Assembly (NCBI RefSeq): GCF_000214375.1
Contig: NC_015578.1
Location: forward strand, 2,542,001 to 2,606,000
Direction: 5' to 3'
DNA: 64,000 nucleotides
From: Treponema primitia ZAS-2
Lineage (GTDB): Bacteria > Spirochaetota > Spirochaetia > Treponematales > Breznakiellaceae
Below, piece by piece: positions 35,426-63,838 of the stretch; positions within the stretch are counted from its first letter, which is position 1, and each line of letters begins with the position of its first letter. Below the pieces are notes generated by a model, which saw only the letters and a list, made by a program, of their open reading frames with translations, made no database searches and was not told where the DNA came from. A program made the position numbers and the translations under genes.

Positions 35426-35653
35426 AGAAACCTCTAAGGTAAAAGTGTATAGCCCCCATTACCAGCCCGTCAAGGGCGCTAAGGGCAATTCTTGGTTTAT
35501 GGTGGGTGGATTGGGGTACTGACCGGGGAGGGGTGGGCAATTCGCTCCTGCCCGACCTCTATCCCTATGCAGCTACCTAAAACGATTGCCATAGCTATAC
35601 CATGGGGTGCATTTGACCCGCAATACGCCATCCGGCAAACCCTTCCCATGAAC

Positions 35654-35885
35654 AGCAGTAAGTTATTTTCTTTTCCTAAATGTTGACCCCAAGCCCGGGA
35701 GGGGCGGGGATGCCTCTGGAGGCGTCTATGGAATTCCCAAGAACCCACTTGCGTGGGGGAGGTAGCAGACCCGCGAAGCGGGGCTGACGGAGGCGGACTC
35801 AACATGTTAGCCTTCAGAGGCATCCCCGCCCCTCCCGGGGAATTAGCGTAACCATTGAGTCAAACAGAGAGACCAACTTACTGCT
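35654..35885. repeat. Nested inverted-repeat region containing core element copy A
   Basis: The inner element is 35694-35839 (146 bp) with perfect 25-bp terminal inverted repeats beginning CCCGGGAGGGGCGGGGATGC. Its core contains CTATGGAATTCCC and an AGCAGA-CCCGC-GAA-GCGGGG-CTGACGG hairpin. A second pair, AGCAGTAAGTT (35654-35664) and AACTTACTGCT (35875-35885), encloses it. Related cores occur at 63153-63288 and 63616-63740 with different but self-matching arms. No coding frame fits; this fills much of the 528-base gap between phoH and alr. Confidence 0.75.
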
Positions 35886-35974
35886 TTTTATTCGTGTTGA
35901 GGGGTTTAATACCTCGAATACAAATACCTTATAAGAACAACAACCTCGTCCCTTTAGGGCGCGGTTGTTGATTC
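35885..35974 (-). repeat. Dispersed 3'-end repeat, copy 2
   Basis: A 90-bp copy of the element at 8089-8232, in the same orientation relative to the gene before it. Read on the minus strand it begins GAATCAACAACC, encoding the end of alr (ESTTAP and stop), forms an AACAACC...GGTTGTT hairpin with a CCC-TAAA-GGG tip, and continues through TTATAAGGTATTTGTATTCG to CGAATAAAAA. The left arm of the second hairpin seen in copy 1 is missing. Confidence 0.75.
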
Positions 35975-62738: not shown

Positions 62739-63119
62739 ATGGCTGAAACTGTAGACTGGCGGGACACTCTATACACCAAGACCTTTGAACAGGAACTCCG
62801 GGGCCTCCTGCGGCGCCGGGAAGCCGACCCCTCCTGTACCATCGGAGACATCGAGGGTACACTCAAGCACCTATACGTGATGGACGGGGCTGACTGGCTT
62901 GGCCGGGGCGAAGTGGGGGACATCACCATGGCCGCCACCATTGCCGCCTATGAACATATGGTAAGTGAATGGAAAGCTGAAAAAAAAAGTGTGAAAAAAT
63001 GTTACCCTTCGGGGGTACCGTTTGTTTCAGAGTTAGGCAAACGGTTGGCACTGTTTCCTATTCCTCCTTTCCTTTTTATCTGCCCCGGAGAAAGTTTTTC
63101 CCCGGGGCTCTTTTTTTGA
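62739..63119 (+). CDS. Small hypothetical protein, C-terminus uncertain
   Basis: Begins MAETVDWRDTLYTKTFEQEL at ATG 62739, one base after the previous stop, with GGAG ten bases ahead. The first ~80 residues are compact and helical (DIEGTLKHLYVMDGADWLGRG, TMAATIAAYEHMVSEWKAE) with no family I recognise. After a nine-A run (62980-62988) the frame becomes atypical and runs through a terminator to 63119 (126 residues). With one A fewer it would end EKKV at 62994 as an 84-residue protein, which is more plausible. Length variation of the run or slippage should be considered. Confidence 0.65.
   Translation: MAETVDWRDTLYTKTFEQELRGLLRRREADPSCTIGDIEGTLKHLYVMDGADWLGRGEVGDITMAATIAAYEHMVSEWKAEKKSVKKCYPSGVPFVSELGKRLALFPIPPFLFICPGESFSPGLFF
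63082..63117 (+). terminator. Rho-independent terminator
   Basis: GCCCCGG (63082-63088) pairs with CCGGGGC (63102-63108), followed by TCTTTTTTT. It overlaps the end of the long reading of the gene before it. Confidence 0.75.
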
Positions 63120-63152
63120 CAATTCACAGTTTAATCAAAAGATGGCTCATTC

Positions 63153-63288
63153 ACCGGGAGGGGTGGGGATTAGCCCCGGCCCCTAACCTGTAGAGCCTGC
63201 TTACGGAGCCCGCAACATTCTTTTACGCGGTCTCCTCCAGCAGAGAATTCCAGAGACGGGGCCGGAGCTAATCCCCACCCCTCCCGGT
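63153..63288 (-). repeat. Core repeat element, copy B
   Basis: 136 bp with perfect 22-bp terminal arms starting ACCGGGAGGGGTGGGGATTA. Read on the minus strand the core has CTCTGGAATTC, a CCGC/GCGG stem with a 13-base loop, and CTCTACAGGTTAGGGG, matching the cores at 35.7 and 63.6 kb. Confidence 0.7.
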
Positions 63289-63410
63289 ACCATAGGTCAA
63301 CAGTAATAAACAGATATTTCGTGCTGTTAGCAGTAGGTCGAGGCTCATGCATGAGGGAGAACCTCCCACAGGCTGGGGCGCTCACCTACGCAAGCAGCTT
63401 CTCGACGATT

Positions 63411-63629
63411 CCCCAGCACCACCCGGAAACCAAGCCCATTGAAAAAAGGCCCCCCATACCGTATGTACAGCAATCGCTTTACGGTAGGTATATTGGAATA
63501 ACGGCCGGGGCGGGCAAATCCCCAGCACCACCCGGAAACCAAGCCCCCATTGAAAAAAGCCTCCCATACCGTATGTACAGCAATCGCTTTACGGTAGATA
63601 TACTGGAATAACGGCCGGGGTGGGCGGGG
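63411..63629. repeat. 109-bp tandem duplication
   Basis: Units 63411-63519 and 63520-63629 are near-identical, each starting CCCCAGCACCACCCGGAAAC and containing ACCGTATGTACAGCAATCGC and GGAATAACGGCCGGGG. A CCGTA...TACGG-type dyad (ACCGTATG...TTTACGGTA) is inside each. The second unit runs into element copy C. No credible gene lies in 63120-63838. Confidence 0.8.
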
Positions 63630-63740
63630 ATTTCCCCCCTCCCCCGTCTCTGGAATTCCCCGCCGTAGCAGACCGCGTAGCGGGCTGACGGAGGCGGACT
63701 CTACAGGTTAGGGGGAGGGGGGAAATCCCCGCCCACCCCG
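63616..63740 (+). repeat. Core repeat element, copy C
   Basis: 125 bp with perfect 30-bp terminal arms starting CGGGGTGGGCGGGGATTTCC. The core contains GTCTCTGGAATTCCC and AGCAGA-CCGC-GTA-GCGG-GCTGACGGAGG, nearly identical to copy A, whereas the arms differ from copies A and B. Confidence 0.75.
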
Positions 63741-63838
63741 ATCACTTACCCCATTACACCTATCACAAACAGCGAATTGCCATCCAGGAGGATAGATGGA
63801 TTTTCATGACTATGTTATAATGATCCAGAGGTGTAACC

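Follow-up and report, generated by a model that had tools for sequence, protein, structure and literature searches.

Mobile palindromic repeats of Treponema primitia and its relatives keep the fold of one strand while their arms drift in sequence

Palindromic repeats in bacteria are commonly regarded as selfish DNA, with their structure a by-product of the inverted repeats. Among them, intergenic MITE-like repeats with stem-loop transcripts are well known, examples being ERIC, YPAL, NEMIS and BOX (PMC2229807, PMC2267715, PMC3049150). We analysed a window of 64,000 nucleotides of Treponema primitia ZAS-2, positions 2542001-2606000 of a host genome of 4,059,867 bases in a single contig. It contains three hairpin elements: A (35694-35839), B (63153-63288, minus strand) and C (63616-63740). 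A first-pass annotation, made from the letters of the window, knew no named family that would fit them. This holds for Rfam, which gave no match above the gathering score in the window (Termite-flg and Termite-leu included) and only microRNA-like chance hairpins, below the gathering score, at four loci. It does not hold for the general kind, MITE-like intergenic stem-loop repeats, which is known. A literature search found no published description of these particular repeats.

Inspection of the sequence bore out the shared core of the three elements at the positions first assigned to them, and also the inner hairpins: CCCGC-GAA-GCGGG in A, CCGC-GTA-GCGG in C, and CCGC with a 13-nt loop in B. 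The arms had been measured at 25, 22 and 30 bp and are in fact longer (30 bp in A, 31 bp in B and 30 bp in C). They had also been called perfect inverted repeats, which is true of C (100% complementary); A and B, at 97%, have a single mismatch each. The elements lie in two islands of outward-facing pairs with imperfect terminal repeats (Table 1). Element A is further enclosed by a locus-specific outer inverted repeat of 24 nt (35648-35671 / 35868-35891, 79% complementary), which stands outside the usual flanks of the family and is perhaps a former terminator or dyad target. Element C is adjoined by a direct duplication of ~110 bp (63422-63515, 63532-63625) that takes in the start of the element flank and arm (CGGCCGGGGCGGGCAAATCCCC).

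Table 1. Coordinates of the repeat islands and their parts, numbered from the first position of the window.
Feature	Position	Strand	Remark
Island 1, outward-facing pair: core-less hairpin (minus) and element A (plus)	35485..35876	.	imperfect GCAATTCTYRGTTTA-like ends
Core-less hairpin, flank type 2 (GGGGAGGGGTGGGC-AATT-CGCTCCTGCCC)	35524..35555	-	
Element A, 5' arm, 30 nt	35694..35723	+	
Element A, core (GTCTATGGAATTC ... GACTCAACATGTTA)	35724..35809	+	covariance model match at genome 2577708-2577825
Small hairpin module AAGAACCCACTTGCGTGGGGGAGG inserted in core of A	35739..35762	+	
Element A, 3' arm, 30 nt	35810..35839	+	
Island 2, outward-facing pair: B (minus) and C (plus)	63119..63781	.	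imperfect terminal inverted repeats
Element B, 5' arm, 31 nt	63258..63288	-	
Element B, core, 13-nt apical loop	63184..63257	-	covariance model match
Element B, 3' arm, 31 nt	63153..63183	-	
Element C, 5' arm, 30 nt	63616..63645	+	
Element C, core	63646..63710	+	covariance model match
Element C, 3' arm, 30 nt	63711..63740	+	

The annotation had proposed building a covariance model from the copies, searching related genomes with it and looking for significant covariation. After a DNA search of the host genome we built the model from 38 host copies. It gave 51 matches at E<=1, corresponding to ~48 distinct elements, and the host copy counts rest on both searches. Every parsed host copy is intergenic, with genes called heuristically. 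The outer flanks are of three kinds, and copies are often paired outward-facing, with their 5' sides facing, inside one intergenic island. The 3' side of the core usually lies 30-160 bp from a gene. Counted over the host copies, 24 of these genes share the strand of the element and 22 are convergent with it, an even split that led us to reject a role as cis-regulator of neighbouring genes.

Several host copies are rearranged. The small hairpin module AAGAACYCRCTTGCGYGRGGGAGG occurs at differing places inside several elements, and once alone (within A, and at genome positions 940685, 1034008, 1351951 and 2256192). Three copies (L083, L084 and L019/L022) share ~110 bp (AAGGGGGCTTGATGCC...GCGTCC), placed identically within the core internal loop, and degenerate repeats of ~40 bp (CCATACC...GCAATACC) lie between the paired elements of islands L005, L026 and L070. 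The element at genome 2822099 (L004) has one normal arm and one expanded to over 30 consecutive G/C, and an arm at genome 114384 holds a run of ~20 G. In a core-less element at genome 3614333-3614520 (L086), a perfect short hairpin, GGGTCTGGGGGG-CAATT-CCCCCCAGACCC, replaces arms and core. Core-less hairpins suggested an inverted duplication of the target arm through core insertion, a scenario that we rejected, as loss of the core accounts for them just as well.

Outermost in the fold is the variable arm helix of ~28 bp. There follow, going inward, a small loop (GTC/TTA in the host genome) and a 4-bp helix of U-G, N-N', U-A and G-C, with C-G, A-U or U-A as the second pair. Next comes the conserved internal loop GAAUUC / AYUCWA, followed by a 5-bp helix that covaries and a 3x3 loop GNA/GNA; the fold is closed by an apical hairpin of variable length and sequence. 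The conserved internal-loop core, UGGAAUUC / AYUCWACA, sits between the apical hairpin and the copy-specific stem. Covariation is massive in four helices. In the 38 host copies, aligned by MAFFT without structure, pairing holds in 99.5% of cells. Shuffling lowers this to 73.7%, and sliding the partners by 1-3 columns to 39-53%; doubly changed cells number 265, against 76 in shuffled alignments (0/500 shuffles). These values exclude chance pairing. For 85 aligned matches from many genomes, in an alignment fitted to the covariance model and hence leaning towards structure, 93.3% of cells are paired against 64.8%, with 635 doubly changed cells against 180. The significant covariation that the annotation had asked for is therefore present, far beyond the shuffled and slid controls. 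The 3x3 loop takes forms such as GTA/GGA, GGA/GTA, GGA/GCA and GGA/GGA, in which the middle base and the order vary. Watson-Crick GGA/TCC stands in its place in 4 of the 85 matches and in 1 of the 38 host copies. Such variation is compatible with a 3x3 loop that holds two sheared G-A pairs, and tandem sheared G-A pairs are the probable, predicted form of this loop.

The element is present in 46 of 200 genomes of the host's family, spread over 17 of its 57 genera, and several of these genomes hold at least 20 copies each among the matches listed. The core can still be recognised where the arms are entirely different. Among 393 genomes sampled across the phylum, all matches fell within the host's family. 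Over 84,980 species the exact core pattern recovered 98 stretches, and all of the matches listed are spirochaete records, nearly all of them Treponema or Spirochaetaceae MAGs, plus Spirochaetia bacterium MS502-68. Carriers are mostly from termite guts, as we presume from the isolate codes of the MAGs. The repeat family is therefore lineage-restricted, confined to one family of Treponema relatives.

Mobility is visible in one relative (G138, whose contigs match Treponema sp. Roe453_bin134), where copies align end to end and the arms are nearly identical throughout. There the element is a clean MITE of ~243 bp with the terminal inverted repeat (TIR) CTAAACTTGACCCAC, its outermost ends typically ~243 bp apart. 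The TIR CTAAACTTGACCCRCAA occurs at both ends (59 forward, 62 reverse; 0 for the reversed-pattern control). Target-site duplications (TSDs) of 8-9 bp, one mismatch allowed, border 16 of 30 full-length copies, against a shuffled mean of 0.6 and a maximum of 5 in 2000. Exact TSDs are of 8 bp in 4 copies and 9 bp in 5, with no other length from 4 to 11. Two marks of a MITE as a non-autonomous DDE element, terminal inverted repeats and a TSD of fixed length, are thus present in G138. The core is found in 28 of the 30 full-length copies, and the outer stem of the hairpin there forms between the right TIR and a TIR-like copy inside the element. The host genome has only imperfect GCAATTCTCAGTTTA ends and no recognisable TSDs, and its copies are older. 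No transposase with matching ends was found in the DNA examined, which included the surroundings of PF01609/PF00872 matches and, for G138, a MAG that is 71% complete. The annotation had set a folded structure and a transposon against each other. The element is both: a mobile palindromic repeat, with a single-strand fold as its body that selection has long maintained.

The strand that folds can be read from the mismatches. Copying of one arm from the other, or selection on a cruciform, would make G-T and A-C mismatches equally common. Over the inner 27 arm pairs of 39 host copies we counted 45 G-U against 7 A-C (p=7e-8), with 27 elements showing an excess of G-U and 3 an excess of A-C, and the arms in other genomes gave 40 against 16 (p=0.002); both p-values are somewhat optimistic because related copies are not fully independent. 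The core helices in other genomes gave 49 G-U against 6 A-C. Of 46 copies, 42 also fold more stably on the core strand than on the complementary strand (mean -7.7 kcal/mol). These counts argue that the fold of one particular strand, the one carrying UGGAAUUC, has been preserved. With the covariation in four helices and the conservation of GNA/GNA in either order, the strand-specific wobble supports the folded structure under selection that had been suggested at first. It fixes the strand but not the choice between RNA and single-stranded DNA, because G-T is also stable in DNA.

On balance we favour a MITE-like mobile repeat with a strand-specific fold, most likely of RNA, that is recognised by a protein. 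The body is an irregular hairpin of 150-200 nt within a non-autonomous MITE-like unit, probably moved in trans by a DDE-type transposase, a class suggested by the TIRs and TSDs. The hairpin would act as a single-strand fold of the UGGAAUUC strand, most likely as RNA; its transcription would start from a neighbouring promoter or one present by chance. Its internal loop GGAAUUC / AYUCWAC and the 3x3 GNA/GNA loop would be bound by a protein, be it a host RNA-binding protein, a nuclease or the transposase. The variable arms may serve only as a long helix, which would explain why they drift yet stay paired. We hold only tentatively, and as rather unlikely, a more far-reaching reading: a new class of structured RNA, defined by a conserved internal-loop core of its own that would bind protein (or even be catalytic), carried as the payload of mobile repeats and functional at nearly all of the dozens of loci per genome.

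RNA is the likelier acting form, and single-stranded DNA its main rival. Covariation, tolerance of wobble pairs and non-canonical loops are marks of structured RNA and count for it. The host genome counts against it, since promoter scores upstream of the hairpins there show no signal (mean 6.5, against 6.4 for shuffled sequence) and the elements have no preferred orientation relative to genes; the promoter-like TTGACC-18-TTTATT upstream of the copies in G138 is shared by them and counts as a single event. The same two points speak for a core strand that would fold as DNA during replication or transposition and be recognised by a transposase or recombinase, by analogy with integron attC sites, which likewise combine variable sequence, a conserved fold and strand preference (PMC2727003). 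The mobility of the element, with a strand-specific fold at the end of the mobile unit, would also suit this explanation. However, TSDs of 8-9 bp and TIRs are in keeping with double-strand DDE transposition, for which a fold is unnecessary; the Y1 transposase genes of the host genome have no element in the ~3.3 kb around each; and pairing is still kept in old copies that no longer move. Hence we regard single-stranded DNA as a possible acting form, though an unlikely one.

The repeat might simply spread itself, as an ordinary MITE or terminator-like palindrome with no further function, its structure following from the inverted repeats. TIRs, TSDs, intergenic location and copy number all agree with this, as do the G138 arms, nearly the same in every copy. 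The age of the host copies points the other way. In 17 host copies with type-2 flanks, mean identity is 69-74% in the flanks, 72-77% in the arms and 81% in the core, yet the arms, taken as reverse complements, match at 94% within a copy against 74% between copies. Neutral arms in copies this old would have lost their pairing, and the core is conserved across 17 genera, so we consider mere self-spread improbable. These comparisons argue for selection at most loci, or else for continuing turnover of active copies. The annotation had described the arms as differing between copies. They do pair better within a copy, but they are not unrelated to one another; nor do they evolve faster than the flanks, an idea that we rejected given the similar divergence of the two. 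Slightly less probable still is that palindrome self-correction, by template switching or intrastrand repair, keeps the arms complementary with no selection on the fold (the annotation's element that rebuilds its own ends): sequence drifting while pairing stays, and the odd replication events seen in the poly-G expansions and swapped small hairpins, are what it would give, but it predicts strand-symmetric mismatches where the host arms have a strong G-U excess, and it leaves the conserved internal loops and the GNA/GNA motif unexplained.

Several described repeats resemble the family in kind. YPAL/RU-2 of Yersinia and ERIC/RU-1 of enterobacteria are likewise dispersed and intergenic, of ~130-170 bp, with a long stem-loop, target duplications and transcripts that fold (PMC2229807, PMC2267715). 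They belong to another host lineage, and YPAL duplications are of 3-26 bp, unlike the 8-9 bp here; a conserved internal-loop core with hypervariable paired arms does not appear in the parts of their descriptions considered here. BOX, RUP and SPRITE of Streptococcus pneumoniae are small interspersed MITE-like repeats with extensive predicted RNA structure, some of them transcribed (PMC3049150). BOX differs in its modular boxA-B-C make-up and its host, and the portion of its description used here contains no strand-specific wobble test. Correia/NEMIS elements of Neisseria are MITEs with TIR and TSD, and NEMIS RNA hairpins are proposed substrates of RNase III (PMC2229807); NEMIS differs in its 24-bp TIR, its 5'-TA termini and its restriction to Neisseria.

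Two further kinds share features with the family and were rejected. Unlike integron attC sites, the copies here are dispersed in MITEs with TSDs, have no cassette arrays and lack paired R boxes at the base; the core GTTA faces GTC in the internal loop and not RYYYAAC (the attC R boxes are RYYYAAC/GTTRRRY). REP/REPIN-RAYT systems are likewise GC-rich intergenic hairpins, and the host has 3 Y1 transposase genes. The elements are, however, far longer than the tagged palindromes of 20-40 bp and carry TIR plus TSD, and none lies in the ~3.3 kb around each of the 3 Y1_Tnp genes.

Because dozens of copies per genome have drifted yet keep a one-strand fold, selection at most loci becomes directly measurable, and the long-standing question of whether repeats of this kind act as RNA, or solely as DNA, becomes testable in a cultivable termite spirochaete. 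The family is a distinct, lineage-restricted variant that resembles ERIC, YPAL and BOX in kind and is set apart from them, as far as the cited portions of their descriptions go, by a conserved internal-loop core and lasting strand-specific covariation; it is absent from Rfam and confined to one spirochaete family.
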